Of a stretch of 38,665 bases of DNA, positions 14,201 to 38,440 are shown in pieces; position 1 is the first letter of the stretch; each line of letters starts with the position of its first letter. The stretch lies in the IMG/VR virus record IMGVR_UViG_3300034101_001802, positions 1-38,665 of that record; one strand, 5' to 3'. The notes beneath the pieces are model-generated. The model did no database searches. It worked only from the letters and a program-made list of their open reading frames with translations, and was not told where the DNA came from. Made by a program: the position numbers and the translations under genes. Source of the stretch: a virus.

Positions 14201-17200
14201 TCCATTCTCATACCTATCTGAAACTAAGAGTTTAGCATTCTGACTACCACGAGTTGTGTATTCTTTTATTTCATTGTTAGTAGCTACTTGTATACCCATG
14301 AATCTATAGTCAAGAGTAAGAGTATTAGCATTAGCTGCTACAGGATTACCTTCATATTGACTTTCTTCTACTATATCATCATACAATGGATAGTAATTAC
14401 CATCAGGTTGCATCAAGGCACCTATCTTTATACCTGAAGGATATACAGCTACGCCTTGTCCATTAGCCATCATAGACTCAGCTATAGCTTCCATGTTAGT
14501 ACCTTTATAAACAGAAGGTATAAGAGGAAGCAAACTGAACTTAAGATACACAGGAACAGAAAGTCCATCTACTTTATTTAATCCAAAGTATTGAGCTTTA
14601 AGTACGTTAAATACTTTGGTTATCTTATCTACAGGTATATTATCTCCACGCATTACTTGCTGATAAAGACTTTCTTCTACCCTTCCCCATTCACCTACTC
14701 TTAATCTAAACTCTCTATATTCTGGTAAAGTAATGTATCCTTGTCCATCAGCTTCTTCCATTGCAGAGTATTTACTTGCAAGAAGGCTACCCTTTTTAAC
14801 ACCAAACTTTTCCTCAAAAGCTTTTCTTATATCAGATAAATAGGAAGACATAGTTACAGGTTCTTGCATAACTACTACTTCAAAGAATCCATCTTTAACT
14901 AGTTTACCATCTTTGTTAGACTGTGAAAGACTATTAATAAAGTTATTAATACGTGTATCTACTATAGCCATTTTCTTAGTACCTACTGCACCAGCAGTTC
15001 TCTTATAAAGGTCTACAGCTGATTTGTAAAAAGCAGGGTGCCCGAAGAATAATTTGGTCTGTTCAATATTACCTATTAAACTATTAGCTGTAAAAGCTTC
15101 AATAAGATTGTCAAACTGAGCTAGACTCATTTTAACACCTTGTTCAGACTTACTAAATGTAGTTCCAGCTTCTTTCTCAAACTGCTCTGTAATTCCTTTA
15201 TCTAAAGCACGAAGAGTTACTGCCATTCCACTTGCTGTAGGAGTATACACAGCAAGATTATTATCAACTAAACGCTGTATAACTTCTTTATTATGAAGTT
15301 CTAAATAATCTGAAATAGCTTCTCTAATGGCTTTTATATTAGTAGTTACATAATCTTCTACAGATTGAGTAGGAAGAATATTAGGTACCTTGTCTTTTAT
15401 AATCTCTTCAAAGAAATATAAACCATTACCTTTATTCTTACCAAAATTAGCAATTAAACTACCACCTGTTTCTTTACCTACAAGTAGTTCGTCTGCTAAA
15501 TATCCTACAAGAGTTTCTATTATCTCACTTCTTTTGCTATTAATATTACCAGGCCTAAAAAGAGGATTACCTTCTCCTTCTCTAGTTATATCTATTGCAT
15601 ACTCTAATGACTTGTCTGAAGTTCTAAGGATTGGGAAGATTCCTTTAAGGATTGAATTAAAACTCATCCAAGTCCTATCTTGTTTATCAGACTGAGTATT
15701 TACTTTACCTTCTGCAGCTGTTTGATTAGGACGAGCACCTTCTATAATTGTTATTTTAAAAGGTACATCAGTCCTTACATACCGTCCATTTTCATTTTTC
15801 CTAAATAAAATCTCATTTAATAATTTTGAATTACTTATATAAGGAGATAATAATCCTGGGAATTTACCAAACCTTCCATATAGTTTATGTATAGGAGTAC
15901 CTACAGGCATACTGTTTATATACTCTGCAAGCATAGAGATGGCATTATGTTCAGATACTCCATAACGAGTTTTACCATCTGGGCCTATATGCTGTAAATC
16001 TGTAACTTCATAAAGCTTAGAAGCTGCTATCTTAGCAAGATTAAATAGACGTGATTGCGAGGTTTTATTAAAAATATAATCTAAATCTAAGTCTTGTCCA
16101 CTCTTAGGCTCTTTAGACAACTGAGCTGTAAAATATTTAGCATTATCTATAAACTCTCTAGCTTCTTCATTACTATATTCAGATGGATCTGTAACATCAA
16201 TAGTAAAACCAAGTTTATTTAACGCCTCCATGTAATATTTAAAAGCATCAGTCTTAGGAGTTTTTACAGTGTTAAGAATCTCTCTTACTTTCCTATGACT
16301 AACCCTTGGTAAAGAAGCATCTTTGGGTTTTACTATAATAGATTCAGTAGTACCAAGATTTTCTACTAGTTTGCTACGCCATGTAGCAACAGTTCTATCC
16401 TCAGCAGTTTCTGCGTTAGGGTCTTGTTTTACTACATCTCCTTCATTTACAAGCCATAGATTATAATTCAATGCAGTCTTATACATAGACTGCTGAAAAT
16501 TAGTAACCAAATTATTTGCTTCTAAAGGATCCTTAGCCATATTTGCAGGATCTGTAAGTAAAGCAAGTAAGGTCTTATAATGAGGAATCTCTTCGGAAAG
16601 TCTTTCTAAGACTTTTACCATAGAGTTATTATCACCAGGGTCATTAAAAGTAGTTGAAGTATGTAAAGAAGATAACAGGTGATTAAATACACTGTTAGGA
16701 TTTACAAGCATTTGTAAACCAAGCATGTCTCCTTTTTCAGGAGTCATTACTCCATCAACTCTTGAATAAGCAGGTAATGATGCTACCATTAATTTTACAA
16801 AGGCGTTTGTACCTTCTCTAGGATGAATTGTAGAACTATCTTTACCCCAAGCATTACTATCTCTATCTGTTCTTTCTTGCTCGTTTATATCATCTTCTTT
16901 GTAAAGACCCAGGTCAATAGCTAAGTCATTCTGTATATACTCTTTTACAGCATTTCTTATTTTCTTACGTCCTGTTTCACTAGTATAAATAGCATTAAAA
17001 GTTTTTTTAGTATTTATAACTATGTTAGTAGGAGTTTTATAAAGTGTGCTATCAGGAAGTCTATCTATCTCTTCCTTAGTTCTTCTTATACCATCATCTA
17101 TAAAAGTTTCTAATTCTCCTACAGTCATCTTTGCTAAATCTCCTATACTATTATTAGCATTAAAAAGAGATTTAAACATATTACCAACTACAGAGTGAGT

Positions 17201-20200
17201 TACCTCTTTAGTGAACAAGGCAGCTGTTACTTTATCTATAGGCCTTGCAGTACCATCTTTTTTAGAAGTAGACCAAGTTATTAAACTAAACCTACTTGAA
17301 CCAAGTAGACGTTCTTTTGCTTTAACATAATCATAAGTTCTACTAACATACTTACCATTGTATAAGTTGTAGAACATTGAATCAATTGCTCCTAAAGGTT
17401 TTATTCCTAGAAATGCTTTGATAGCATCCCATATAGTTTCAAAAACAGTTTTAAGTTTCTTTGTAGGATAAGTTTTACCACCACTTAATGCAAAAGTTCT
17501 AAAGTCTTCTGCAAGCATCTCGTCATAAAATACTGTAGTAAGTTGAGCTTTATTAAGTTTGGGGTAAATCTTTTTTAAATCAGCAAGTTCTTTTTCAGTA
17601 GGTTTACCATAAAGCTTTGCAGCTTCTTTGTAAACTTCTGCAAGCTCTTCATCTGTAAGAAGACCTAACATTACTTCGTGTAAAGCTTCGTGATATTCAG
17701 TACCTTCTTCAGCTAATTCAGACAAATAAAGTACAGCATCTCCCGTAACTTTACCTTGAGCTATACCATTAAGAAGTTTTTCTACTACTTTAACATTGAC
17801 TTGAGGTAAGTTTTTAGCAATCCAAGCTTTAGCTTTAGCTATGTCTATTTTAGGACTACCTGTTTGTTGTGTTCTACCCAATCCATCTTCATCTTCTTCT
17901 TCTGTAATAATAGGGTCTTCCTCAATTTCTCCTTCTGAAATATCAGCCTCTTCTCCTGGTTCTACATTATCCGTAACTACAGATTCACTACTACCCATAA
18001 GAGCAGCAAGTTCAGAACTTTCTCCAGCTGCAAATTCTCCTCCTTCTGCAGGAGCTGTAGGAGCAGAAGCTGCTAAAGATTCTAACTTTACAGCAATTTT
18101 TCTATACGTATCATATATTTCAAAACCTGTAGATTGACCAGCAGCTTTAATCTTACTTGCTAGTTCATCATCTTCTAAAGATTCTACTAATTCAGTAGCT
18201 ACAAATTCATCAAAAGCTTTTTCTCCAAGTACACTTTTTACCTTTTTAAATATACTATCTAACTCTGTTGATAGAACATTTCCTTCCTCGTCTGTGGGAT
18301 AATTAGCATCTGTAAACTGTGCTTCTCCTTTATTTATTATACCTTTAACTTCTTCTAATAAAGAAGCAGCTGAGCTTTTTGCAGGAGGAGGTGTAGTAGT
18401 CCCAGCTTTAGGAGGGGTGTAAGTAGCCTTAGAAGATTCAGGAGTTTCTTTTATAGCTTCAGGATTATCAGAATATTTAAGATAAGTACTCTTGATTATA
18501 ACTTCTCCATTACTATCTGTAACAGCATTAGTAGTAAGAGGTATATCTTCTACAGGACGAGGGTTACCATTAGGTTGCTTGTTGCTTATAAGATATGAGA
18601 AGTAGCTATTATGTTTTACAGTTTCTACATAGAGAGGCTTACCTTCTTCATCAAATACTACCCTGTTAACTTCTAAATGGCTACCTGATTTGCCAAGTTT
18701 ATCATTACTAATCTGATGGTATTTATTTTCTAAGAAGGTAAGTAAAGCATCTTTATTAGCTTCAAGACTTTCTTGAGTAAAAGGTACTTCTACCCTAGTA
18801 CCCTTAGTAAAATCATAAAAAGAAAGTTGGCCTTCAGTTAGATAAAGTTGGGTTTGAGGATTAGGACGTGCAGAAAGAAGTGCATCTTCAGCTTTATCTT
18901 GTCTACCAAAATAGACAATTCCACGTAAGTAATCATAGATACTAAGAGTGTCTTGTGTCTTAGACTTACGAGCTGCTTCAGCTTCTTCTTTAGTAAGTTG
19001 TTTCCTTTTGTAGTAACCCCAAGAGTTTTTATACCTATTCCAAACAGCTGCATACTTAAAGTTACCTTTCAGCTTTTTATTTATAGCATCTAACTTTGCT
19101 AAAGCTCTTTTCTTATCCTTTTCAGGTTTACCATCTTTACCTAAAAGTACAAACTCACTTTTTGTCTTTTTTGTAGCAGTGGCTTTTTGTACAGCTTCTG
19201 CTTCTTCAGGTGCAAGAGCTATCTCAGCACTAGAAGTTAATGCAGTAAGAAGGTCAAATACTACCTGAGTTTCATTAGAACTAAGTTTTCTAGAAAGAAG
19301 GGGTACTACTACATCTTCATCTGTAATAAAATAAGCCAGACCATTCTTTACCTTGACTTGTTCTTTACCTACAGTAATATAACCCCAACCTTCTGCAGCA
19401 TCTTCATCATTAGTAGCCTTGGCTATTTCTATCCTACTCTTACCTAATCTTTCACCTTTCTTATTTTCTGTATTACCAAGAAGGGTATCCCATACAGCAG
19501 TAGTTAAATCCCTATCTCCTGTACGTTTATGAGGAGTAGTTTCAAGAAGTCCTAAAGATTTTCCTGTAACAGGTAAGAAAGAATTAATACCAGCTGCAGC
19601 TCTTTCAAAAAGCTTATCTCGTAAAGCCTGGAGTTTCTCCATAGCTTGTGCAGCTTCAATAGGCCTGTCTTTAGCATCATAAAACCTTTCGTAGTTCTCT
19701 GTTTTAAGAGTAGGTAATGGAATAAAATTATATACAAGCTGGTCTTCTCCAGCATTCTCTCCTAAAGGTTGTAGGTTAGCATCTACAGGAGCTCCATTCT
19801 TATAAAGAATAACTGCTAATGCATCTTTCTGCATTTTTTCAGGTAAAGGCTTACCTTCTGCATCTACAAAAAGATCAGGACGTTGTTGAGCTGTAACTAC
19901 TCGTAAAGAATACTTAGCATCAGAAGTACTAATTTTAGCTACAGTTTTAGACCATCTTTGCTGCGCTTTATTAGGATTAGGAGTACCGTCAGGTAGAGTA
20001 TCCATACCTGCAGTTTTAAATGCATTATCTATGCTAGGTTTTGGAGATGAATAATTAGTAATTAACGTATCTTGAGAGTTATCAATCTCTTGAGTATATG
20101 TTCTTTTTGCAGCTTGTCTAGGCGCACTTTCAGCTTGTTTAGCACGACGTTCTGCAAGCACCTTAGCTAAAGCATCTTCAAATAAAGACCTTTCTTTATT

Positions 20201-23200
20201 TAAAGAGTTAATCATTTTTTCCCAAGAGTTTATATAACTTTGGATTTCAGCAAGTTGCTCTAATACAGCATCTAATTGTTTCTCTTCTATACCAAGATTT
20301 AAAAAAGCTTGTGTTTGTTCAGCACGTAATTGTCGTAATAATGGAGTAACATCTGTCTGCCATTTTACCATTAAGTTATTTACAGTAGCTGGGTCTACAC
20401 CATAGATACTTTTATATAAAGCTTTGAACCTAGGATAAATAACTTTTACTAAAGCTTTTAGCGCATCTATTACTTCCTGCATTCTTTCTGCAGTAGCCTC
20501 AGCTTGATTCTTAGCATCTTGAACATCTCTAATCTGCTTTTGTAAAGCAGCTATGTCTTCAGTTATAGCTTTATTAAAAACATCTCTTCTAAATCTATTC
20601 TCTTGAACTTCTTTTAACCCAGCAAGAGCTTTGTTATTCTCTTCAAATAATGTAGCTCTTTGCTCATCAAGTTCTGCAATCTTTGCTCTATATTGTGCAA
20701 GTTTATTTTCAAGGTCAAAGATTTTAAAAGTAGTTTTTACACCATCTATTGTAACCCTAATTCTGCCAGATTTTGTAGCTTTAGCACGTTTTAAAAGTTC
20801 TTCAGCCTCAGTTATACTTTCTTCTATAATTTGTTTCTGCGCTCGTAAATTTTCAGCTAAAGCCATATTAGCTTTAATCTGCTTTTGAAGAGTTTGAACA
20901 CGTACATTATTATATATTTCCTGACGTTGTTCTTCCCTACTGAAAGAACTAGATGCTAAAAATGAAGGGTCTCTTTCAAGGTCTTCTAAGTCATATACAT
21001 TACCATCTTTATCGTACATAACATTAGGTTGACCTCTTTTAAAGAAAAGGTCAATAGTATCATCTATTGTTTCACGAGATTCTACTGGATTTTTAACTTC
21101 TACTTTAACTTCTTTACCATCTACAATAACTTTATATGTAGCATATTTATCTCCAGCTTTAGAAGTTCTTACAGCTGCATTACCATCTTCATCTATAAGG
21201 TTAGGATTTTCTGTAACAGGTTGTGCATCTTGAAGTGTAATAGGAGCTCCTGTAGATTTAGAAATACCTGTAACAGTTAACTTATCTTTTTTACCATTGT
21301 CTACTTTAAAGACAGTACTTTCAAACCCAAACTCTGGGTCTTCATTAGTATTAGCCTGGTAAAAATTCTTATACCTTTCTTCTTTAGAAGTCTTATCTAG
21401 AAATCTTTCTTGAGCATCAGTTTCAGCCAAAGCTTGGGCATTTTCTGCATACCTTTTATCAGCCATTTTAAAGTATGCATCATTCATGGCTTGTCTTTGC
21501 AAGACTAACCCATATAAATCCCTGGCTTTTTCAGCAAACTTAAGTTTAGTTTCAGGATTACTTTGATACTCTAAGTACTCATTTATAAGCCTTCTATAAT
21601 TATCAAGCCCTTTCTTTTTACTTAAGAATTGCTCTAAATCTACAGGAGTAGCTAAAGCTGAAAAGTCTGAAATGTATTGTATCATTTCAGGAGTAAAATT
21701 CTCATTAATCCCACGAAGAAACTGAGTGCCTGTTTCTGCTTTAATTTCTCCAAGTAAAGAATTAATTCTATCATCTATATCCAAAGTTGAAGCAGCTTTT
21801 AAAAGCATATCTTTACGTGCTCCTTCAGGATAATCTGAAAATCTTACATCAATATCTTCTTTAATCTTTTTTATTTTCTCAGCTTGTTTTAAAGCCTTTT
21901 CTCCTTTATCTTTAATATATTGTTTTACTTGGTCATCGTCCATACCCTTGAAAAAATCAAGAGTAGTTTCTTTTCCTGTTACAGAAGAAACAACTTTAGA
22001 GCTGTACTTAGCTCTAAGTTCAGCAGCACTAAGTAAATTTTCATCTTGTATTTTACTTTTTAAATCCTCAAACTTACCTATTTCTACAAAAGTATCTACC
22101 ATGTTAGCAAGTTGCATTGAGTTGATAGTTTTATGATTCATCCTATCATCTGCTAACAATGCTTCATCAGCCATACTTTTTAAAGCATTGTCTACTACTT
22201 GACCTTCGTATAATTTTTTGGTAAGTGTGTCTTGTAAATAACTATTAGCAGCTTCTACATTTCTTTTAAAAGATGCGTCTGCGGCACTTAACTCTTTATA
22301 TTCTCCATAAATACCACCCTCAATACCTAGTTTTACACCTAACTTAGAACCAGGAGCACGTTTAATTGTAGGTATTCCTAATCCTCCAATAACTAAACCT
22401 GCAAATGCATTTTCCCAACCTTCTTCTGTACCATAAGCTTCTTGTAAACCACGTCCTATAGAAGTAATAAAGTTTTGTACATCTGAATTAGCGTCTTTAT
22501 TAAGCCTTAAGTTATAGTAACTTTCTGCAGTTTTCTGAATAGCAAATTGTCCTTGCTCTTCTGTCATCTCCATTAAAGGATCTTTAAGAAGCTTTGTAGT
22601 ATAGTCTAAACCTTTTTGAAACTTGTTTCTTTTTACAAGTTCATATAAACCTGTATCTTCAGCAACATTAATAGCCTCAGTAGTTAAAACTTTATTAGGT
22701 GTGTAGCCTTTACTAAAGATGTTTCTAAATTGTGTATAATTAGATAAAGTAAGTAATCCTACATTAGCTGTAAATACAGAATTTTGGTAATTCTGAGTTT
22801 CCTTCTCTAAATTATTTAGTTCTTGCTCATATTCTTGAGGAGTTATCTCTCCACTTTCAATTTGAGCCCTAAGGCCTTGCATCCTCTGCTCTTTAAAATC
22901 TTTACCATTTTGCAAAGCTTCAAAAGTAGATTCACCTAAAGAACCTACAAAAGAAGACACGGCTTGATTCATAGCCGTTTTACTTTTTATAGCTTTAGCT
23001 ACAGTAGCAAGTTCATCTAATACTTGTGTATTTTTTAAAGCAGCCAATTGTTCACCTGTTAAAGTAGCCACTTGTTTCATGGCAGCTTGTTCAGCTGCAG
23101 TTAAAGTACGTCCTTCTTGTAAAGCTTTAGACAATCCTTCTAATACTTTAGAAGTATTCCTAAGTGTAGTAAGTCCAAATAATTCTGCTCCTATACCTGC

Positions 23201-23779
23201 AGTTACCATACCTGCACCCATTGCACCTACTGCAAATCCAAAGTTTTTAAGGATAGTTTCTCCCCAAAAGTTAGTAGGATTTTTAATGGCATTAATCCAA
23301 AAAGGATTATCCATTTCTTCTTGAGTACGATAGTTAGGTAAAGCTTCTTCTAATCTTTGTTGAAAATCTACAAGTTCTCTAGAAACAGGATTGTCTATAA
23401 ATCTATTATATAATCCTTGATCTTCCCTACCTGTTGCTAAATTTACAAGACCTGCTAATGCTCCTAAAGTACCTTGAGCAAAAGTAGAGACTCCTATACC
23501 AACAAATTTAGTAGCACTTCTACCAAGTTGTTCTGTCCAAGGCTGCAACTGAGCACGCATTTCCTCATTGTCAGCACCTATTTGGTAGCCTGTATATAAA
23601 TAATCAAAGTAAGTATTGTCCTTATCTGGAACACTTACTTGAGGACTTCTTACAGTAGTTCCTCCATAAGGAGTTTCAGCATATCTTTGATTAATGCTGT
23701 TTAACTCCATTTCTACTAACTCAGTAGGAGTATAAGGTTGGTTAGTTCTTGGGTTTATATTAACAAGATTTGGCCGCAT
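11216..23779 (-). CDS. Giant virion RNA polymerase / zincin protein (4187 aa)
   Basis: The DFDID motif at residues 3477-3481 (LVAKSGGDFDIDKLNVY, nt 13337-13351) matches the double-psi beta-barrel catalytic loop of crAss-like virion RNA polymerases. The three Asp bind the catalytic Mg. This family, known from phage phi14:2, is ejected with the DNA and transcribes early genes. A metallopeptidase-like HExxH (HEALH, H2030-E2031-H2034) follows an acidic linker (about 1905-1965) and could process the protein or act on a host target. The N-terminus has two Gly/Ala-rich hydrophobic segments (about 91-117 and 179-204), possibly membrane-inserting. A long coiled coil spans about 950-1200. The protein is much longer than phi14:2 gp66 (about 2180 aa), so it likely fuses modules that are separate elsewhere. 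It starts 14 nt after the lysozyme-module stop. Confidence 0.88.
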   Translation of the reverse strand: MRPNLVNINPRTNQPYTPTELVEMELNSINQRYAETPYGGTTVRSPQVSVPDKDNTYFDYLYTGYQIGADNEEMRAQLQPWTEQLGRSATKFVGIGVSTFAQGTLGALAGLVNLATGREDQGLYNRFIDNPVSRELVDFQQRLEEALPNYRTQEEMDNPFWINAIKNPTNFWGETILKNFGFAVGAMGAGMVTAGIGAELFGLTTLRNTSKVLEGLSKALQEGRTLTAAEQAAMKQVATLTGEQLAALKNTQVLDELATVAKAIKSKTAMNQAVSSFVGSLGESTFEALQNGKDFKEQRMQGLRAQIESGEITPQEYEQELNNLEKETQNYQNSVFTANVGLLTLSNYTQFRNIFSKGYTPNKVLTTEAINVAEDTGLYELVKRNKFQKGLDYTTKLLKDPLMEMTEEQGQFAIQKTAESYYNLRLNKDANSDVQNFITSIGRGLQEAYGTEEGWENAFAGLVIGGLGIPTIKRAPGSKLGVKLGIEGGIYGEYKELSAADASFKRNVEAANSYLQDTLTKKLYEGQVVDNALKSMADEALLADDRMNHKTINSMQLANMVDTFVEIGKFEDLKSKIQDENLLSAAELRAKYSSKVVSSVTGKETTLDFFKGMDDDQVKQYIKDKGEKALKQAEKIKKIKEDIDVRFSDYPEGARKDMLLKAASTLDIDDRINSLLGEIKAETGTQFLRGINENFTPEMIQYISDFSALATPVDLEQFLSKKKGLDNYRRLINEYLEYQSNPETKLKFAEKARDLYGLVLQRQAMNDAYFKMADKRYAENAQALAETDAQERFLDKTSKEERYKNFYQANTNEDPEFGFESTVFKVDNGKKDKLTVTGISKSTGAPITLQDAQPVTENPNLIDEDGNAAVRTSKAGDKYATYKVIVDGKEVKVEVKNPVESRETIDDTIDLFFKRGQPNVMYDKDGNVYDLEDLERDPSFLASSSFSREEQRQEIYNNVRVQTLQKQIKANMALAENLRAQKQIIEESITEAEELLKRAKATKSGRIRVTIDGVKTTFKIFDLENKLAQYRAKIAELDEQRATLFEENNKALAGLKEVQENRFRRDVFNKAITEDIAALQKQIRDVQDAKNQAEATAERMQEVIDALKALVKVIYPRFKALYKSIYGVDPATVNNLMVKWQTDVTPLLRQLRAEQTQAFLNLGIEEKQLDAVLEQLAEIQSYINSWEKMINSLNKERSLFEDALAKVLAERRAKQAESAPRQAAKRTYTQEIDNSQDTLITNYSSPKPSIDNAFKTAGMDTLPDGTPNPNKAQQRWSKTVAKISTSDAKYSLRVVTAQQRPDLFVDAEGKPLPEKMQKDALAVILYKNGAPVDANLQPLGENAGEDQLVYNFIPLPTLKTENYERFYDAKDRPIEAAQAMEKLQALRDKLFERAAAGINSFLPVTGKSLGLLETTPHKRTGDRDLTTAVWDTLLGNTENKKGERLGKSRIEIAKATNDEDAAEGWGYITVGKEQVKVKNGLAYFITDEDVVVPLLSRKLSSNETQVVFDLLTALTSSAEIALAPEEAEAVQKATATKKTKSEFVLLGKDGKPEKDKKRALAKLDAINKKLKGNFKYAAVWNRYKNSWGYYKRKQLTKEEAEAARKSKTQDTLSIYDYLRGIVYFGRQDKAEDALLSARPNPQTQLYLTEGQLSFYDFTKGTRVEVPFTQESLEANKDALLTFLENKYHQISNDKLGKSGSHLEVNRVVFDEEGKPLYVETVKHNSYFSYLISNKQPNGNPRPVEDIPLTTNAVTDSNGEVIIKSTYLKYSDNPEAIKETPESSKATYTPPKAGTTTPPPAKSSAASLLEEVKGIINKGEAQFTDANYPTDEEGNVLSTELDSIFKKVKSVLGEKAFDEFVATELVESLEDDELASKIKAAGQSTGFEIYDTYRKIAVKLESLAASAPTAPAEGGEFAAGESSELAALMGSSESVVTDNVEPGEEADISEGEIEEDPIITEEEDEDGLGRTQQTGSPKIDIAKAKAWIAKNLPQVNVKVVEKLLNGIAQGKVTGDAVLYLSELAEEGTEYHEALHEVMLGLLTDEELAEVYKEAAKLYGKPTEKELADLKKIYPKLNKAQLTTVFYDEMLAEDFRTFALSGGKTYPTKKLKTVFETIWDAIKAFLGIKPLGAIDSMFYNLYNGKYVSRTYDYVKAKERLLGSSRFSLITWSTSKKDGTARPIDKVTAALFTKEVTHSVVGNMFKSLFNANNSIGDLAKMTVGELETFIDDGIRRTKEEIDRLPDSTLYKTPTNIVINTKKTFNAIYTSETGRKKIRNAVKEYIQNDLAIDLGLYKEDDINEQERTDRDSNAWGKDSSTIHPREGTNAFVKLMVASLPAYSRVDGVMTPEKGDMLGLQMLVNPNSVFNHLLSSLHTSTTFNDPGDNNSMVKVLERLSEEIPHYKTLLALLTDPANMAKDPLEANNLVTNFQQSMYKTALNYNLWLVNEGDVVKQDPNAETAEDRTVATWRSKLVENLGTTESIIVKPKDASLPRVSHRKVREILNTVKTPKTDAFKYYMEALNKLGFTIDVTDPSEYSNEEAREFIDNAKYFTAQLSKEPKSGQDLDLDYIFNKTSQSRLFNLAKIAASKLYEVTDLQHIGPDGKTRYGVSEHNAISMLAEYINSMPVGTPIHKLYGRFGKFPGLLSPYISNSKLLNEILFRKNENGRYVRTDVPFKITIIEGARPNQTAAEGKVNTQSDKQDRTWMSFNSILKGIFPILRTSDKSLEYAIDITREGEGNPLFRPGNINSKRSEIIETLVGYLADELLVGKETGGSLIANFGKNKGNGLYFFEEIIKDKVPNILPTQSVEDYVTTNIKAIREAISDYLELHNKEVIQRLVDNNLAVYTPTASGMAVTLRALDKGITEQFEKEAGTTFSKSEQGVKMSLAQFDNLIEAFTANSLIGNIEQTKLFFGHPAFYKSAVDLYKRTAGAVGTKKMAIVDTRINNFINSLSQSNKDGKLVKDGFFEVVVMQEPVTMSSYLSDIRKAFEEKFGVKKGSLLASKYSAMEEADGQGYITLPEYREFRLRVGEWGRVEESLYQQVMRGDNIPVDKITKVFNVLKAQYFGLNKVDGLSVPVYLKFSLLPLIPSVYKGTNMEAIAESMMANGQGVAVYPSGIKIGALMQPDGNYYPLYDDIVEESQYEGNPVAANANTLTLDYRFMGIQVATNNEIKEYTTRGSQNAKLLVSDRYENGVAQPITVYRDGKPKSLTSKETQALVKEYHQTVNQITEEKAKKILAEIGAKEVKPGVYKITNVKNLSNKLIRAARNRNSPDNLIDSLGTVEEGTEIRFKYLLDGVPSRNKIENLLFSLINNTVITQKYNGGARIQAASTGFERGPRTYNFKDGKAILTSNPDLRFYIPGKNGEILPAQVKVAPNSDMMQVIKKLGGITKTNEILKKLWEVTIEDGKVTGGTRYNPEAVKELLGDISPEIFQFVAYRIPTQGMNTIENLEIVEFLDPLAGEAIHLPSELVAKSGGDFDIDKLNVYFRHFTKEGSINVEDKEQVLHNKMISISQDFLAAPENYTDLLMPNDPVVLKDLAGKETLVSKTKSLTWGHNLDTAEYYLVGKAAVGIVARHRTHHTLTQQAGVSINKVYMGGVNFDEQTSAKLNFAGSEDNYSLGGISDSNKQHKIGDIISEFLSAFVDVAKDPFIFRLNGNINTADTYMYLIRRGVPIEVASKFMTQPVIIEYFKRYAGGRSMVNVMNGTDVSSGEIKQELYSLLEAAFKNLGGTDASKIAFKSFTEDNLSGYVGKDLSENLKDLSFVRTQIQVLEDFSRYMEQSNNLRMLMDATSDDTVRHKNFNALDNYNKRMDEVRKSNMFDSKSVQRIFDDTLVGGFQKAQMLHDVYRDLFVTESPKIKTALDSLRDYLKSNKVDEQSSNDILDRAKNALIVHMYSTSKDFMADVQKRLQLGTEDLKSMPEEIASKLKSPNPAIRKNPFYKQLIPLLQNPKSAVKALKMFNVKLTTFDFNQIVNGFSGITDVNEQKRLAALILFQSGLDNSAETWYDKVPVDVMADLLNNAIMQFKDNLANFDSDYFMQEFIRNNYMNSSLVPYLGSLERLAIDKTGTFKGQVPKRFGNRLYLKVKATYPEYQDKDKAALAKAAGLDTAEYLLLAKTEDGSFKLINKRGDRLSKEYKKANMNSMLNKNNVNTGEFRDKFPQWSEPLLPALPKNESLPSQGETLENNC

Positions 23780-23793
23780 TTTTATATATTAAG

Positions 23794-24309
23794 TTAAGAT
23801 GCAATTAATTTAATAGCTTCGTCTAATTCTGTATCTGAAACATTATTTAGACCTTCCCACTCATTTCTAAGTTGAGTTCTCTTTTCTGCTAAGGTACCAC
23901 CTTTTTTCAACCTTTGCTGTAAAAGGTATATAAACATTTTATCTTGTATTTCAGGTGTAAACATTGTATCATCTGGTAACTCTAAAGCTGTAGCAACATC
24001 TTTAAGAGTTTGACCTACTATTTGATATTTACCTAAAGGCGTAGCTTTTTTAGTAGATTTTCTAATTCCTTTACTATACTTATCATAAGCTCCTCCAGAT
24101 TTAGTAAATTCATAAAGCTCTGCTAAAGTTTTACTAGTTATATCAACGTCTTTAAAACTTTTTGATGTTGTTTCAGCATTGTTGTACAAAGTTTTATAAG
24201 AACCAGCTTCTACTTTATTTAAAAGAGTTAACATTTTATTATAAGAATCATCTAAAGTTCCTGTCTTATTTTCTTCTGATGGAGCAGGCTTGGCATCAGA
24301 AGGTTCTAC
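23794..24309 (-). CDS. Lysozyme-like (GH104-type) module, reached by -1 frameshift
   Basis: The frame is open from the slippery site at 24309 to the stop at 23794. It gives a 25-residue Pro/Ser/Glu linker (VEPSDAKPAPSEENKTGTLD...) and then 146 residues from ATG 24234. The domain matches the phage lambda R/GH104 muramidase layout. LLNKVEAGSYKTLYN carries the likely catalytic Glu. ITSKTLAELYEF, PLGKYQIVGQTL, and MFTPEIQDKMFIYLLQQRL follow, all typical of the family. It would cut peptidoglycan glycan strands during genome entry. The frame is -1 relative to the upstream 765-residue gene, and the linker is coding-like throughout, so it is probably expressed as a C-terminal extension (936 aa total). 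Independent start at ATG 24234 would trim residues close to the catalytic segment. Annotation as a separate 146-residue gene is the alternative. Confidence 0.82.
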   Translation of the reverse strand, partial: VEPSDAKPAPSEENKTGTLDDSYNKMLTLLNKVEAGSYKTLYNNAETTSKSFKDVDITSKTLAELYEFTKSGGAYDKYSKGIRKSTKKATPLGKYQIVGQTLKDVATALELPDDTMFTPEIQDKMFIYLLQQRLKKGGTLAEKRTQLRNEWEGLNNVSDTELDEAIKLIAS

Positions 24310-24315
24310 TTTTTT
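24273..24315 (-). promoter_or_regulatory. Programmed -1 ribosomal frameshift signal
   Basis: On the - strand the zero-frame codons end CAA AAA AAG TAG. The heptamer A AAA AAG (24315-24309) is in the exact X XXY YYZ register, the same slippery sequence as E. coli dnaX. After a 6-nt spacer (TAGAAC), CTTCTGATG (24302-24294) pairs perfectly with CATCAGAAG (24281-24273) around a 12-nt loop. Loop CCTG (24288-24285) could also pair with CAGG (24263-24260) as a pseudoknot. The zero frame stops at once, and the -1 frame enters the lysozyme module. Confidence 0.85.
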
Positions 24316-26603
24316 TGCGGTACAGGAGCTGGAGAACTAAATACATTTATTTCAGGTAAACTAGTTCCTGAAAAATATCTTTCATTTATCTTACCCATCT
24401 TACCATTAAAGATAGTAATATTCTGACCAGGATTTGCAAAAAGTTTATCAAGTAAACTTTTTCTTTGCTCAGTAGTTAATCCAGGTCTAGACATAATAGC
24501 ATTATAACTATCTGTAAACCTAGCAAGGTCCCAAAAAGATGAAGTTTTTATTACATTGTCTTTATCTAAACCTGGGACTTTAAATAAGTAGTCACCCTGA
24601 TTAACCCCTACTTCAGAAATAGCTTGAAAAGCAGATTTAACTTTAGGAGTAGCAGCTACTTCTTGTATAGGAGCACCATTACTATCTACTCCTGCATCTT
24701 TATATAAAGTAATTGTACTGGCTCTTCCATCTGTAGCTGCTAATCTTTGCATAAATAACTTTTGTTTTTCTAAAAACAAAGTATGCATTTGAGGATCTAT
24801 CTTTTGAATGTATTTACCCAAATCAGATATACCAGCATTTATTTCATAAGTTTCTCCTCCATAACTTACATCTGCTACATAGCTATTAGTACTCTCATCA
24901 AACCTTACACTATAAACAGCATCTTTCCACAAAGCTGCATTTTGTTGTAAAGCTGTCATCTCTTCTGCACTTAAATACTGTCCTCTATTTCCAGCCTCAG
25001 GTCCAAAGTTAGCTCTAGTAATATTCTTAGGATTAGCAGCAGCACGTATTACAGTATTTCTAAGTTCATTTTCATCCTCACTAGCTACTGTATAACTAAA
25101 TGCAGGTTTATAGATAGTAGCATTTAAATACTGGGTAAGCTTGTTATTGTATTCAGCATATTTAGGATCTTTTGTAAGATATTCGTTATAAGCTTTATCA
25201 TAAGCTAATAAAGAGTTTTCACCTTCTTTTGTCGGGATACCATTTTTATCTGATACTAACTTGTATAAATCTTCTCTATTATTTAATAATCCGTTTATTA
25301 CATATGTAGCACCATAAGTTAAAGCTGCACTTGCAGCATGACGATTAGCTTCAACCAACAAATTAGGATTAACTTGACGCTCCATAGGTTCATCAGGATC
25401 ATAACCACTTATACTTTTAAAATGATTTAAAATAGACTGATGGCTATCTTTTTTAATTTGTGCTTCTACAAGTTGAGCATTTAATTCAGCTGCCCTTGAT
25501 TTTATTTGAGGGTCTTTAATAAGATCTAAATTAATCTCTTCGCCATTTATAGTATGATGAAAAGTCGCTTCACCTAAATCAGGAAACTCTTCTAAAATTT
25601 TTCCTTTAACAATAGTTACATTAGCATCTTCTTCTCTAATAAGCCCTTCTAATCCTTCTGTACTAGTAATTCTTCTATTATTTACACCTGTTACATAATC
25701 TAATGCTGTAGTAACAGGAGTACCTTTTATAGCAGGAGATTTATCTGTACCTCCTTTTGATGTACCGTCTGAATCACCACCACTTATAGGACTTAAACTT
25801 TCTTCTACATGTTTAAAATAAAAAGGTACACCAGAAGTTTTTATCAAGGCTTTTGCAGCTTCTGCCTTTTCTTTAGGGGAAAGATTTTGGTTTTTTGCAT
25901 GCCAATAAGAAAATCCAGGTTTTGCTTCAGGATTTTCCATTAACATTTTATAAGTAGATTCTGCTACAGGAGCTAGAATATCTTCATCTTTGTAAGATGT
26001 TTGAGTTGCTGTATTATAATATTTTACCTCACCATCTACAATCTTTGTAGTAAGTCCTAATTCTTTTATTCTAGCTTCTTTTTGAATATTAAATTGTTCT
26101 TGAATTTCTTTTATAGGGTCTCCATAATACGTAATGTTGAACTTATCAGGACCATACCTAAACTTATTTTGTTCAAATTCACCTTTAGAATTTATAATAC
26201 CAGGAGCATTTATAACAGCATTTTTATTTTCAGCATCCCATAAAGTATTAGAATTTTTATCAAACCAGTCTTTAGAAGTTACAACTGTTTGTACATTCTG
26301 GTCATTTGCAAAGTTTGAACTTATACTTGTAAGTTCTCTTATAAATTCTCTAGACCCTAAATTATTTTTATGCTTTTCTACAAGATTATTAAGCTTATCA
26401 TTATATGTTTTAGTTAATCCTGTAGCTAAGTCTTCATGTCCTGGTGCAGCATTTAGTGCTGCAAATAAACCTTTAGTTTTACCAATTTGCTCATCGGCAA
26501 GGTCTAGACGTTTACTTTGTTTTTCTGCTAATCCTGCTAAAAACTCAAATGGTATTTGAGGAAATACCATTTCAGGCTGTTTATCCCATATTGAATATGC
26601 CAT
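24306..26603 (-). CDS. Virion cargo/structural protein, zero-frame product (765 aa)
   Basis: The protein is mostly helical and charged, with no membrane segment. The start MAYSIWDKQPEMVFPQIPFEFL leads into helices rich in Lys, Asn and Glu. The C-terminus is Pro-rich (NVFSSPAPVPQKK) and stops at TAG right after a slippery A AAA AAG site. No enzyme motif was recognised in the 765 residues. By position, between the tail muzzle-like protein and the RNA polymerase gene, it fits a crAss-like cargo protein held in the tail or capsid. A minor fraction is likely extended into the lysozyme domain (total 936 aa). It starts 18 nt after the stop of the 928-residue gene. Confidence 0.8.
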   Translation of the reverse strand: MAYSIWDKQPEMVFPQIPFEFLAGLAEKQSKRLDLADEQIGKTKGLFAALNAAPGHEDLATGLTKTYNDKLNNLVEKHKNNLGSREFIRELTSISSNFANDQNVQTVVTSKDWFDKNSNTLWDAENKNAVINAPGIINSKGEFEQNKFRYGPDKFNITYYGDPIKEIQEQFNIQKEARIKELGLTTKIVDGEVKYYNTATQTSYKDEDILAPVAESTYKMLMENPEAKPGFSYWHAKNQNLSPKEKAEAAKALIKTSGVPFYFKHVEESLSPISGGDSDGTSKGGTDKSPAIKGTPVTTALDYVTGVNNRRITSTEGLEGLIREEDANVTIVKGKILEEFPDLGEATFHHTINGEEINLDLIKDPQIKSRAAELNAQLVEAQIKKDSHQSILNHFKSISGYDPDEPMERQVNPNLLVEANRHAASAALTYGATYVINGLLNNREDLYKLVSDKNGIPTKEGENSLLAYDKAYNEYLTKDPKYAEYNNKLTQYLNATIYKPAFSYTVASEDENELRNTVIRAAANPKNITRANFGPEAGNRGQYLSAEEMTALQQNAALWKDAVYSVRFDESTNSYVADVSYGGETYEINAGISDLGKYIQKIDPQMHTLFLEKQKLFMQRLAATDGRASTITLYKDAGVDSNGAPIQEVAATPKVKSAFQAISEVGVNQGDYLFKVPGLDKDNVIKTSSFWDLARFTDSYNAIMSRPGLTTEQRKSLLDKLFANPGQNITIFNGKMGKINERYFSGTSLPEINVFSSPAPVPQKK

Positions 26604-29408: not shown

Positions 29409-29412
29409 GTTA

Positions 29413-32803: not shown

Positions 32804-35800
32804 TTATCTAGAGTTTACTGAGTACAATGCTTTAGCTGAATGTGCTACTAATTTATTCTGTCCAGTAGTAAGCTGATTACTATATGTCAAGTCTACTACA
32901 AACCATTTATCTTTCATACGTCTTGTAATAGCTGGTCTATTAAGTGCAAGGTTAACAGGGTTAAATATATTCTGAGTTACATCTAGTACTCTGTCAGAAG
33001 GAACTTTTACATTCCATATAGTCTTATGCCTTCTTGATAATCCTGTAGTAGATAGTACATCAGTATTTTGATAATTATCATATACTCTAATCGTATCAAA
33101 GAAATCTGTATAATCTATTGCAGAGAGTGAATCATAATTTATGTTACCTGTAAGGTTTGCTTTATAAGACTCTGCTACAATCTCAAGGTTAGTAAATACC
33201 TTTTCTATGGTAGGATTGCTATTTACTACAAAGCTTACTTTAGAATCATCATATGTCACATTATCATAAAACTTACCATAAGGTCCATAGTTATGAATAT
33301 GTATAGTATCTGATAAAGTTACAGGAGAAGTAACTACTCCAAAGATATTTACCTTGTCATTGATGTATACTTTAGGATAATGTGTGTAGCTTCCTACAAA
33401 CCCATCAAAAAAGTCACTATATACAAGAGTATCTTGGAAGTCATCATCAAGGAAGGTCATGTAGAACTCTCCATGCCTATAGTCATATGTACTATGAATA
33501 CCTCTGCCTATGTAAGGATTGTCAAAATTCTGAAAGTTACCTCCAGTCCTTGCATAGACATACGCACTGTATCCTTTTAAATCAGATAAAGGTGCTAATC
33601 CACTAGGACTGTACTTGTATATCTTCCTTGCCAAAGAATCAAACCATATCATGCTATAGTCTGATACAGACATACTAAACTGATGCTTTGTACCTGTCTT
33701 AGTAGATATGTAATCATACCTTTCAAGAATACCTGAAGAACCTAATACAAGTTCTGACAAGTCTCCATCAGAACTATTTAAAAGTTGTTGCGCAGCTACC
33801 TGTACTACACCAAAGCCTCTATCTTGGAAGAAGAATAACTTATCTTGAAATATGATAAGATTATTAATAGGTCCATACGCAGACTCTACATCTTTAAAAG
33901 CACTTGGCTTAAATACACTCCAAGACTCTACAAGCTCTCCGTCAATTTTAGGCTCAGATTTCCATATACGACAGTCATAGACTGTAGCAGGAACTATCAA
34001 AGCAGGTTGAGGAAAATATCTGTATACTGATTTGTCTGTATGATTAAATACAGGGTCTACTGTAAATTCTTCTTGTATAGGTAAAGTAGGTGTAGAGTTC
34101 CATCCAGAATCTTGGGCTCCATACAGAATTTCAAGATTCTTTGTTTTATTTGGAACTAAAGTTCCTTGTGAGCCAAAGGCTTGATTATTATATGTCCTTC
34201 TATAATCTACAGCTATAGAAGTTTCTACAGGGAAATAAACTTCTTTAAAGAATATGTCTACTCTATTACTAGCATCAAACTTTTCAGCTTCTGCTCTATC
34301 AAAAAATTGCAGAGTATAATCCATTACTACTACAGAAGTATCACCTCCTAATACCTTAGTAATAATAGGCGCAGTCTTATTACTTATATCTATAAGATTA
34401 TTACAAGGCACATATTCACTACTACTTCTAGCAAAATAATTTTGTCCGCCAAAAGGAGAAGCTACATTCTTTTTATAGTTACCTAAATAATTATAAAACT
34501 CATAAGCAGTAGAGGAGTCCCATCCGTCTAATTGTATAAAGTTTCCTCCTCCAAAAGATACACTTGGATCTGCAAAATTATAAGCTTCTCCATCCAGCAT
34601 TTGTACGAACAAAGTATTATTCCCATACGAATATCCTGGATGAGAACCATAATTTAATCCTCCTCCAGAGCCATTTAAATCTTTAGGTACACAATGATGT
34701 ACAGACCTTACAGCAAGAGTAGACCCTGCTCCTTGTATTGTACTAGCAGGTCCTCTGTATAATCTAGTTCCATTTCCAGCTCTGTTTAATACAAATGCAT
34801 TTATAAGACCATATGGGTTATTACTAATATTACTTTTTATACTACTAGGTGTAGAAGCACCTTCATTAAGTTCATAGTTTTTTATTCTAAATCCAGTCCA
34901 TCTTTTATTTTGCTGGCCACTAGAACTACTAAAAGGTTCTGAGTCTAATGCCTGTAAACTTCCGTCTACATCTGCTGCTAAAAATGCAAAATCACTTTTA
35001 TACAAAAGTCCTAACACATCTACTGCATCACTAGATGTAAAACCTTGAAAAGTATCAAATAAAAATTCAGGGCTTGCTAAAGTCCAACAATCATACCACA
35101 ATCCATTATAAGAGCCCCAAGCATAATTACCTCTAGCTCCATTCTGTGTAAATACTGTATTAGTGTCAGCATAAGGTGACCCACTCATTGAAGTAGATAT
35201 AAAAGTAGGTTGAAGGTAACCTTGCCCTATTACATGCTTAAACTCAGGTTTTAAAGGTACTCTTACAATAGAAGCTTTTTTATATTGAGAAGGTACACTG
35301 CTAAAGTCTATGGTAAACTTAATCCCTAGAGGTTTACCATACAAGTCATGTTTATTATTAGCTTCATCTAAATATGTAGTATCTGTAGAAAGTCCATTAG
35401 TAGGATTAATACCTACACCTAATCTAGTCCTAGTAGTTCCTGCGCCTGAAATAAAAGCATCTCTACAAGTAGCAGGCATAAAGATATGAGGCATCCTAAT
35501 ATCTCCAATCCAGCTTACATATGTAGGATTATCCAGCTCATCAAAGAAGACAATTCCAAACCTATACATTTCATCTCTTCTATAACCTACAAATAAATCA
35601 TAGACATAAGGAGATGCATTATTAGACAAAGAAGTGCCTTGTGATACAAAAGTCCTGTCAACAGAATTAAATGCTATTCCAGCATTTGTATCAGGAGTCA
35701 TGTGTGGACCATAAGCTCCACTTGCAGGCGAGTCGTCATATTTATTATCAAGCTTTACATTCTCTGTAAAAAACTCGTATTTTACATTAGGACCTGCTCC

Positions 35801-38440
35801 TCCTAGAATGTTAGAGTTAGGCTGGAATAAATAGTTCGTGTCAACTGTAGGACTTTGGTATACATACGCCTGAAGACAATCATGTGTTTCAGGTACAGGA
35901 TTATTAGGAGTTCCTAGATAATTAAAGTCACCTGTTGCAGGGTCATATACTACAGCTTCAAAATTAGGATTAGTTGCTGACAAATATTCAGCTTCATACT
36001 GGATATATGTAGTATTATTATTTATAGGAAACCTATAAGTTCTAGCATCAAAGTTTATAACCTGGTCTCCTGTAGTTACATTAGCTAAGAAAAGAGTTTG
36101 CTTTTTAGCAGCAAGAGTCTTGGCACGTTTGATGCTTGTTGTAAAAGCTGTAAACTCTTCTATTGTAATAGGTACTACAGGGTCTTCATCTCCAGTAATA
36201 AATACTTCAACTGAACTGCCAGAAATAAAAGCTTCTTTTACTATAAGTATTTCAGGCTGGTTATTATTATCCTTATAGTATAATGTAACAAACTCTATTG
36301 TATCAAAGTTTGTATCAATATTATCTACACGAATTATAATTTGCTTACCCGCATCTTCTGTTACTAGTTTTCTAGGATAATAAGTTTTTACATCAGGGTT
36401 ATTACCTTCTGATGCGTCAATGACAGGAATAAAATTAGTAGTCCTACTAAATCTTGTCTCAGAACCATTAGTATTCTTTAACCTGTATGCTACTTGATAT
36501 AATCCTACTTTAAGACTACCTCCATCCTGTATATTAACAAATACAGGCAAGTCCATACTTAAAGAAGGAAGAAGATTAAGTTGTTCTACAGTAAGGGTAG
36601 CTACATTAGGGTCAGCTACATTTATCTGACGAGGTACATTATAATTGTCTGTCCAGTATATTTTCTGAATTAAAGAATTTTCATACCTAGATTCTATCAT
36701 GCCAGGATTGGCAATAGGCCTGTATATGGTAAATCCTGCATTACCTGTCCAAACAGGTATACCTGCATTACCATTAAAATCTCCTAGTATATAGTTATTA
36801 GGGTCTGCTGGGTTACCACCCTTATCATACAAAACTTTCCAAATAGCATCATTAGTTACAGGAGGAGCTCCAAGTGAATTGTCTGGGTCAAAAGTTCCGT
36901 CTGTAGTAAAGATATAAATGTCATCACGCAGTGCAACCCAACCTATAATTTTTATAGGAGCTGTTGGAGGAATAGAGTAAGCACTAGGTACAATGTAGGA
37001 GGAAAGATTTGCAGAGGTTATACCAGTATTGACTATTCTCAAATAATCAAAACTTACTGAGTAGTCAGCTGCAGACCCTAATACAGAACTTACTTTTATC
37101 CAATAATTAAAAGCAAGATTAGTAGTCACATCATCTGCACTACTTCCAAAAATAGATTGAGCAGGATTTACTCCTACTATAGAAGGTATAGAAAAAGTAA
37201 AGCTAGTTGAACCAGCAGAGTTATTCAGACTATCATAGTTTGTAACCCCAGCAGGTATATTAATACTTTGTATTAATATACCTTGAGGTCCTGTAGAACC
37301 AGCAGATGTAAGGTATTCTATATCTCCTGTACCCGCAGGACCAAAAGTACTAAGGTAGTTTGCTCCCCATTGACTTGCGTCACTTATACCTGGGTCAAAA
37401 TATATTTTTATAGTTACAGGTAATGCTGAAGTTTTTCTTACATAAAAACTTAACTCAGCATTATATGGACCATAAGTAAAAAGATTTTTATTATACAATG
37501 GCCCTGGAGTATATCCAGGATTAGATATGGCTTGAGCATAGTTTATATCATAACTTCCTGAACCCTCTCCGTACAAAAGTATTCTAGAGTCATGTGCATC
37601 TGTAGCACCTACTTCTACTACAGTATCTGAAGGACTAACTACACTTCCAGAAAAGTTATATACGTCTTGACCCATTCTTTCAACAAATGTTTCAAAATTA
37701 TAACTTGCTAAAAGAGGTTCTGTAACATCAGATGGTGTGCCTGCCCAAGGAGGCCCAGAAAATTGGTTACCGTCATATTCCCATACAGCCCATAATGGAG
37801 TAAGAGCATAAGAAGGTATATCTGATAGATACAATCCACTGCCTATGCAGTTAGGCGCAGGTACTGCAGTATAACAAGAAATTTGAAACTCAGGGTCAAA
37901 AGGTTCAAAAGGTTTTCTTGTAACATCTGCTGTAGGATTTGTAATAGTAAAAGAAGATGCAGTTATTGTAGTTCCGCATGGAACTTGTACTAACATGGAA
38001 TTTCTAGGTGCAATGACAGTTACTAAAGCATTAGTAAAATCAGCATTATTAGAAATATATGTTCCTAGTGTATCTAGGAAAAAATCAGCATCATTTGTAG
38101 AATTAGTAGTAGCAGTGTATGTAAAAGAAAAGTTAGAAGTAACAGGAACTCCATTAATATTAAAACTTATATCATAAGAAGCCCCAGGTATTAAAAGAGG
38201 AAATATTGAATTTATTAAAGTATCCTTATTTACTATCTGTATGTAACAAGTAGTAGCAGGTGGTGCAGTACTAAGAGGTACTACTGCTACAGTTCCTTTT
38301 ATACTTTCTCTAGCCGCAGAAGTATTACCATCATTAGTAGTAATCCTGAAGTTTTGAGAATCAAATACAGCTCCTTGTGGGAGTTTGCTGAATGCAAGGT
38401 CTTTATTTACTAAACCACCTAAGTCTTTAATTTCTTCCAT
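32804..38440 (-). CDS. Muzzle / P22 gp10-like tail stabilisation protein (1878 aa)
   Basis: The N-terminus (EIKDLGGLVNKDLAFSKLPQ, then GAVFDSQNFRITTNDG) has the look of phage tail stabilisation proteins of the P22 gp10 type, which cap the tail and keep DNA inside. The rest is beta-rich and low in charge, with many Asn, Ser, Thr, Tyr and Gly, as in large tail-nozzle proteins. In crAss-like phages the muzzle gene precedes the cargo and RNA polymerase genes, and this gene sits in that place. No catalytic motif was seen. The start ATG at 38440 lies 1 nt after the upstream stop, so translation is probably coupled. Confidence in a virion role is high, in the exact name moderate. Confidence 0.62.
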   Translation of the reverse strand: MEEIKDLGGLVNKDLAFSKLPQGAVFDSQNFRITTNDGNTSAARESIKGTVAVVPLSTAPPATTCYIQIVNKDTLINSIFPLLIPGASYDISFNINGVPVTSNFSFTYTATTNSTNDADFFLDTLGTYISNNADFTNALVTVIAPRNSMLVQVPCGTTITASSFTITNPTADVTRKPFEPFDPEFQISCYTAVPAPNCIGSGLYLSDIPSYALTPLWAVWEYDGNQFSGPPWAGTPSDVTEPLLASYNFETFVERMGQDVYNFSGSVVSPSDTVVEVGATDAHDSRILLYGEGSGSYDINYAQAISNPGYTPGPLYNKNLFTYGPYNAELSFYVRKTSALPVTIKIYFDPGISDASQWGANYLSTFGPAGTGDIEYLTSAGSTGPQGILIQSINIPAGVTNYDSLNNSAGSTSFTFSIPSIVGVNPAQSIFGSSADDVTTNLAFNYWIKVSSVLGSAADYSVSFDYLRIVNTGITSANLSSYIVPSAYSIPPTAPIKIIGWVALRDDIYIFTTDGTFDPDNSLGAPPVTNDAIWKVLYDKGGNPADPNNYILGDFNGNAGIPVWTGNAGFTIYRPIANPGMIESRYENSLIQKIYWTDNYNVPRQINVADPNVATLTVEQLNLLPSLSMDLPVFVNIQDGGSLKVGLYQVAYRLKNTNGSETRFSRTTNFIPVIDASEGNNPDVKTYYPRKLVTEDAGKQIIIRVDNIDTNFDTIEFVTLYYKDNNNQPEILIVKEAFISGSSVEVFITGDEDPVVPITIEEFTAFTTSIKRAKTLAAKKQTLFLANVTTGDQVINFDARTYRFPINNNTTYIQYEAEYLSATNPNFEAVVYDPATGDFNYLGTPNNPVPETHDCLQAYVYQSPTVDTNYLFQPNSNILGGAGPNVKYEFFTENVKLDNKYDDSPASGAYGPHMTPDTNAGIAFNSVDRTFVSQGTSLSNNASPYVYDLFVGYRRDEMYRFGIVFFDELDNPTYVSWIGDIRMPHIFMPATCRDAFISGAGTTRTRLGVGINPTNGLSTDTTYLDEANNKHDLYGKPLGIKFTIDFSSVPSQYKKASIVRVPLKPEFKHVIGQGYLQPTFISTSMSGSPYADTNTVFTQNGARGNYAWGSYNGLWYDCWTLASPEFLFDTFQGFTSSDAVDVLGLLYKSDFAFLAADVDGSLQALDSEPFSSSSGQQNKRWTGFRIKNYELNEGASTPSSIKSNISNNPYGLINAFVLNRAGNGTRLYRGPASTIQGAGSTLAVRSVHHCVPKDLNGSGGGLNYGSHPGYSYGNNTLFVQMLDGEAYNFADPSVSFGGGNFIQLDGWDSSTAYEFYNYLGNYKKNVASPFGGQNYFARSSSEYVPCNNLIDISNKTAPIITKVLGGDTSVVVMDYTLQFFDRAEAEKFDASNRVDIFFKEVYFPVETSIAVDYRRTYNNQAFGSQGTLVPNKTKNLEILYGAQDSGWNSTPTLPIQEEFTVDPVFNHTDKSVYRYFPQPALIVPATVYDCRIWKSEPKIDGELVESWSVFKPSAFKDVESAYGPINNLIIFQDKLFFFQDRGFGVVQVAAQQLLNSSDGDLSELVLGSSGILERYDYISTKTGTKHQFSMSVSDYSMIWFDSLARKIYKYSPSGLAPLSDLKGYSAYVYARTGGNFQNFDNPYIGRGIHSTYDYRHGEFYMTFLDDDFQDTLVYSDFFDGFVGSYTHYPKVYINDKVNIFGVVTSPVTLSDTIHIHNYGPYGKFYDNVTYDDSKVSFVVNSNPTIEKVFTNLEIVAESYKANLTGNINYDSLSAIDYTDFFDTIRVYDNYQNTDVLSTTGLSRRHKTIWNVKVPSDRVLDVTQNIFNPVNLALNRPAITRRMKDKWFVVDLTYSNQLTTGQNKLVAHSAKALYSVNSR

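Follow-up and report, generated by a model that had tools for sequence, protein, structure and literature searches.

In the crAss-like phage studied here, a programmed −1 ribosomal frameshift very probably joins a lysozyme-like domain to a 765-amino-acid (aa) late protein, so that one protein would be made in two forms. We place the probability of this reading, which is based on sequence, at about 0.85. The DNA analysed (hereafter 'the window') is an IMG/VR virus record of 38.7 kb. The late genes of the window all lie on the minus strand. The first is a gene for the crAss muzzle protein (32804..38440; Pfam crAss_MUZ, 5.2e-130). Three genes follow, for proteins of 1129, 928 and 765 aa, and then come the lysozyme-like frame and a gene for a crAss-type virion RNA polymerase of 4187 aa with a DFDID motif (11216..23779). 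A protein of 1510 aa is also encoded. We assign the phage to the Crassvirales because it has crAss structural genes, marked by crAss_MUZ, and the giant virion RNA polymerase. The polymerase matches crAss phages, at only ~25% identity to those that have been named. We searched IMG/VR for matches to the 765-aa protein, to the lysozyme and to the N-terminal part of the polymerase, and obtained a single crAss-like contig, IMGVR_UViG_3300034283_000468 (loci L002, L013, L018, L027 and L110). We refer to this contig as the relative.

The 765-aa open reading frame (ORF; 24306..26603, minus strand) ends CCG CAA AAA AAG TAG. The slippery heptamer A AAA AAG (24309..24315, minus strand) is in zero-frame register and the zero-frame stop codon, TAG (24306..24308, minus strand), is directly 3′ of it. 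A 6 nt spacer, TAGAAC (24303..24308, minus strand), begins with this stop codon and leads to a hairpin (24302-24273) that has a perfect 9 bp stem and a predicted energy of −11.4 kcal/mol. The 5′ arm is CTTCTGATG (24294..24302, minus strand), the loop is 12 nt long (24282..24293, minus strand) and the 3′ arm is CATCAGAAG (24273..24281, minus strand). Upstream, the −1 frame is closed by a TAG codon (24337..24339, minus strand). The heptamer in register, the immediate stop, the spacer and the stem described in the original prediction are all present to the base. No Shine-Dalgarno-like stimulator is visible in the sequence upstream of the heptamer. Few −1 motifs are more efficient in E. coli than A AAA AAG (PMC4066793, PMC5009743). 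Frameshift stimulators generally begin 5–8 nt downstream of the slippery site (PMC4066793).

The energy of the hairpin was reached by 1 of 200 shuffles of the 49 nt after the heptamer. A longer fold, of 77 nt, gave a weaker signal (z −1.44; 14/200 shuffles). The late genes contain 60 in-frame X XXY YYZ heptamers and just one of them, A AAA AAG, has a perfect stem of at least 9 bp starting 5–8 nt downstream. Such perfect stems at this distance occur at 0.16% of all late-region positions. Among 997 stop codons of long ORFs in the collected loci, A AAA AAG at the stop together with an open −1 frame was found only in the window and its close relative; the remaining slippery-stop matches have other heptamers.

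From the slip site, the −1 frame is open for 173 codons and reads KK-VEPSDAKPAPSEENKTGTLDDSYNK-MLTLLNKVEAG... to a TAA at 23794. The 25 codons that follow the two lysines (24235..24309, minus strand) form a linker rich in Pro, Ser and Glu. With the other late genes as reference, the codon usage of the linker scores +33.7 bits in the −1 frame. Coding windows of the same length score 22 ± 7, and off-frame windows −32 ± 12 and −46 ± 14. For the linker and the lysozyme-like domain alike, the score is positive only in the −1 frame, which agrees with the predicted passage through a coding-like linker into the domain. When 26-codon stretches of the late genes were sampled, 0.6% of those in one off-frame and 8.6% of those in the other were free of stop codons. 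Between the upstream TAG and position 24234 there is no ATG, GTG or TTG in the −1 frame. The linker would be reachable only via a shift from the upstream gene, since it is coding in the −1 frame yet has no start codon. Judged by codon usage, such a startless coding stretch, open only from the upstream gene, is the trace left by a programmed frameshift. Tryptic peptides predicted from the linker are VEPSDAKPAPSEENK in the window and VEPSDASPAPSEENK in the relative.

Beyond the linker, the −1 frame encodes a lysozyme-like domain of 146 aa (23794..24234, minus strand; stop TAA) with homology to phage lysozymes. The domain matches an endolysin PHROG (7.6e-12), and all 57 aligned members of the domain family match phrog_14527. 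Identity to the lysozymes of Roseobacter and Lentibacter phages is at most 48%. An AlphaFold2 model of the domain is confident (pLDDT 86). Compared with viral proteins, the model is closest in structure to these same Roseobacter and Lentibacter phage lysozymes (E 2e-14). By these matches, the domain is a member of the phage lysozyme family. A G-x-x-Q-x-x-G motif is conserved in the family. Glu36, at the end of the first helix, is E in 49 of the 50 alignment rows that cover the column and is the candidate catalyst.

The domain had been labelled GH104-like. In searches of the PDB, the domain-family profile matched lambda lysozyme (1am7/3d3d) at E 0.015. The same entries were the top Foldseek matches, weakly (E 0.11–0.13, TM 0.31–0.37), and the Pfam SLT profile scored 0.099, below the cut-off. 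The resemblance to lambda lysozyme is weak though consistent. The label is a fair one: homology to phage lysozymes holds, and assignment to GH104 falls short of proof. Residues 275-356 of PDB entry 11mn_A ('66 kDa protein') also matched the lysozyme profile, at an E-value of 0.0099, slightly better than lambda lysozyme. This protein may contain an unrecognised or degenerate lysozyme domain.

Could the lysozyme be a separate small gene, translated from the ATG at 24234, with the slippery site there by coincidence? Homology of the domain begins at this ATG, the context upstream of it is A-rich, as at several other starts in the window, and a homologous lysozyme is encoded by its own gene in Siovirus-type phages. 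However, a separate gene leaves unexplained the 25 coding-like, stop-free and startless codons in the same frame. Nor does it account for a heptamer, a stop and a hairpin that are all in register. The only ATG lies 71 nt from the stop of the 765-aa ORF; gaps between the other late genes are 1–18 nt. Furthermore, the first predicted helix comprises residues 23-35 and the ATG falls at residue 28, so that a start here would cut the helix. We consider a separate gene improbable. Initiation at the ATG could nevertheless operate alongside frameshifting.

The relative is a separate contig, 4–14% diverged from the window, and encodes a counterpart of the 765-aa protein with 88% identity. Most of the codons ahead of the two lysines are changed (FSSPAPVPQ in the window, FNYIPPVVR in the relative). 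The ORF of the relative ends AGA AAA AAG TAG, so that the A-run is six rather than seven, via a substitution with no indel. The two genomes do not differ in the heptamer, the TAG, the spacer or either arm of the stem. As far as the ATG there are two differences only, both in the loop. A stop codon closes the −1 frame of the relative at the same distance upstream. Of the features proposed for a check of conservation, the spacer and stem are kept in this one relative, as is the heptamer, and the run of seven A's is not. Both genomes have an intact domain with its conserved residues; the two synonymous and three non-synonymous substitutions in the domain form an uninformative pattern. The conserved signal is no statistical proof of selection at the RNA level because the two genomes, the only ones that carry it, are ~98–99% identical downstream of the slip site, with no covariation in the stem. 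The step in divergence at the junction could also be explained by a recombination boundary.

The same comparison bears on two further explanations. In one, an in-frame fusion has been broken by an indel, either through sequencing or assembly error or through a recent mutation toward decay. The break does fall in a homopolymer, and in-frame fusions of the domain are known in other phages. However, the frames are related in the same way in the second, diverged contig, where another A count arose by substitution, and the domain, conserved residues and signal are intact in both genomes. An A count that joins the frames, which would have spoken for such an error, was not seen. Since the frame relation is the same with six A's as with seven, a miscounted homopolymer is unlikely to be the cause of the frame break, and we hold an indel of any kind to be very unlikely. 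In the other explanation, RNA polymerase slips on the A-run to give a mixed pool of mRNA, part of which encodes the fusion. The run of seven A's in the window is at the right place for this. The relative has six A's only, which is short for RNA polymerase slippage, yet keeps the ribosomal heptamer. The hairpin and 6 nt spacer are also of ribosomal design. Polymerase slippage is the least credible of the three alternatives. Reassignment of TAG to glutamine, as used by some crAss phages, was rejected; ribosomes reading through in the zero frame would miss the lysozyme frame and run into another TAG shortly afterwards, and the large genes of the window are without in-frame TAG codons. A self-splicing intron was also rejected, with no Rfam match in the window and only 71 nt between the ORFs.

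The gene for the 765-aa protein sits between the muzzle gene and the virion RNA polymerase gene, directly upstream of the latter. This is the position of crassvirus cargo protein 2 (gp46 of phi-crAss001). The 765-aa protein had no match in Pfam, including the crAss cargo profiles. Homology to cargo protein 2 was tried and rejected, with an hhalign probability of 3% against Asinivirinae cargo-2 proteins. The AlphaFold2 model of the 765-aa protein (pLDDT 42) is too poor for use. The original prediction was that a frameshift attaches a lysozyme domain to a virion protein. The joining is well supported by the sequence; a virion or cargo role for the 765-aa protein is probable, and is taken from gene order only.

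Some features of the neighbouring late genes are recorded here in their own right. Towards the N-terminus of the 1129-aa protein, a region ARVET...GGPGRGYYQ...LHWAG is kept in both genomes (window 32201-32802, minus strand; L013:2150-2800 in the relative). By eye, this region resembles a second lysozyme-type fold; Pfam and the PDB gave no match and a PHROG match was marginal. The 928-aa and 1129-aa proteins (26622-32802, minus strand) have the short Gly-rich motifs YAxGG, GGWLDxY and MARGG in common. Their layout is strongly unlike that of the counterparts in the relative, of 648 and 1293 aa, which suggests that these late genes undergo rapid domain shuffling. In phage cr108_1 (L014:13620-25210), the RNA polymerase match is split across two annotated coding sequences. 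For crAss phages, introns, inteins and interrupted polymerase genes have been reported, with which this split agrees.

Programmed frameshifting would work as follows. Most ribosomes on the 765-aa gene would terminate at the TAG, to give the plain 765-aa form. On some passes, the tRNAs paired with the lysine codons of A AAA AAG would slip and pair again one base back, aided by the hairpin 6 nt downstream. The shifted ribosomes would then read the linker and the lysozyme-like domain. The product, of ~938 aa, would have a putative peptidoglycan-cutting domain at its C-terminus. Slipping in the host, and the frequency of slipping, are predicted from the sequence. The lysine tRNA set of the host matters for slipping at A AAA AAG. 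The 765-aa protein may be packaged alongside the virion RNA polymerase and then ejected, in which case the enzyme would cut peptidoglycan and let cargo and DNA in. In phi-crAss001, the smaller cargo proteins are present at an estimated up to ~12 copies per virion (PMC10172136). At up to ~12 cargo copies, a few per virion would bear the enzyme if tens of percent of ribosomes shifted. We see even odds that the frameshift sets the number of ejected cargo copies with a peptidoglycan-cutting domain, and that a few such copies open the wall for delivery of polymerase and DNA. The purpose might be to limit the dose of enzyme, and with it lysis.

Homologous lysozymes were found at 79 other phage loci, all as ordinary genes or in-frame fusions with no comparable slippery site. 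The sole slippery site at these loci, T TTG GGC in a 117-aa ORF (L091), looks spurious. In the Zobellviridae SIO1, ICBM1 and CRP-4, the lysozyme is encoded by a separate gene just after that for an internal virion protein. A frameshift was considered for these Siovirus-type phages and rejected: the lysozyme frame stands in a +1 relation, has a start of its own and lacks a heptamer. The lysozyme of T5S1, KZY1 and others lies within a longer protein, in one frame. Gene 63 of the N4-like Dinoroseobacter phage vBDshPR2C (L024:2542-4599) encodes the protein that immediately precedes the virion RNA polymerase, and the lysozyme lies within it. The lysozyme has the same place in the phage of the window, by convergence or by exchange; the two phage groups both have giant virion polymerases. 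From the comparison with other phages, this lysozyme is commonly associated with virion proteins that are internal and probably ejected, and its joining by a frameshift is peculiar to this one crAss-like lineage.

We also collected 79 environmental crAss-like contigs, many of them fragments, by means of a polymerase motif. The lysozyme domain was found in none of these 79 contigs, and the 765-aa protein in none of the 39 that were searched for it. No other slippery-site fusions were found in the environmental crAss-like loci, most of which span little beyond the polymerase gene. In ten other crAss-like contigs, no hydrolase domain was recognised in the genes upstream of the polymerase. A plain in-frame fusion in related phages, which would have weighed against the frameshift, was likewise found in none of the crAss-like relatives.

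Recoding in phages is known for tail chaperones and for Ig-like domains on capsid and tail proteins (PMC5009743). The Ig-like domains are the nearest precedent. In phage T3 (coat protein) and Lactobacillus phage A2, a late frameshift likewise puts a C-terminal extension on a fraction of the copies of a structural protein, and Listeria phages A118, A500 and PSA have related capsid and tail frameshifts (PMC5009743). Like the lysozyme domain, Ig-like domains are elsewhere also joined in frame. Here, however, the addition is a peptidoglycan hydrolase-like domain, and the recipient, rather than forming capsid or tail tube, is probably a cargo protein that is ejected. The −1 signals of E. coli dnaX and of the IS3/IS911 type have the same heptamer and a downstream structure (PMC5009743, PMC4066793), and the hairpin in the window likewise begins within 5–8 nt. 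Conversely, the stop codon in the window directly follows the heptamer, no upstream Shine-Dalgarno-like element is seen and the products are unrelated. At the lambda G/GT tail chaperone, −1 frameshifting likewise yields a minority extended form of a late protein (PMC5009743). Unlike what is proposed here, the G/GT products act in assembly, are absent from the mature virion and have no enzyme domain. Gene 63 of vBDshPR2C and its counterparts in KZY1 and T5S1 also place a homologous lysozyme on what is probably an internal virion protein; there is no frameshift, and the enzyme is on all copies.

In the open literature, with most subscription papers outside the search, we found no record of a virion protein that gains a peptidoglycan hydrolase through frameshifting, which agrees with the earlier remark that such a use was not known. 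Within the same scope, no programmed frameshift has been reported in the Crassvirales. The main text of two main crAss papers (PMC10172136, PMC7886860) does not mention peptidoglycan or muramidase. If the frameshift is real, recoding would be put to a new use, in which only some copies of a probable entry protein receive an enzyme. This use would also provide a genetic handle on the number of hydrolases needed per virion. The lineage is a concrete candidate for how crAss-like phages pass the cell wall.
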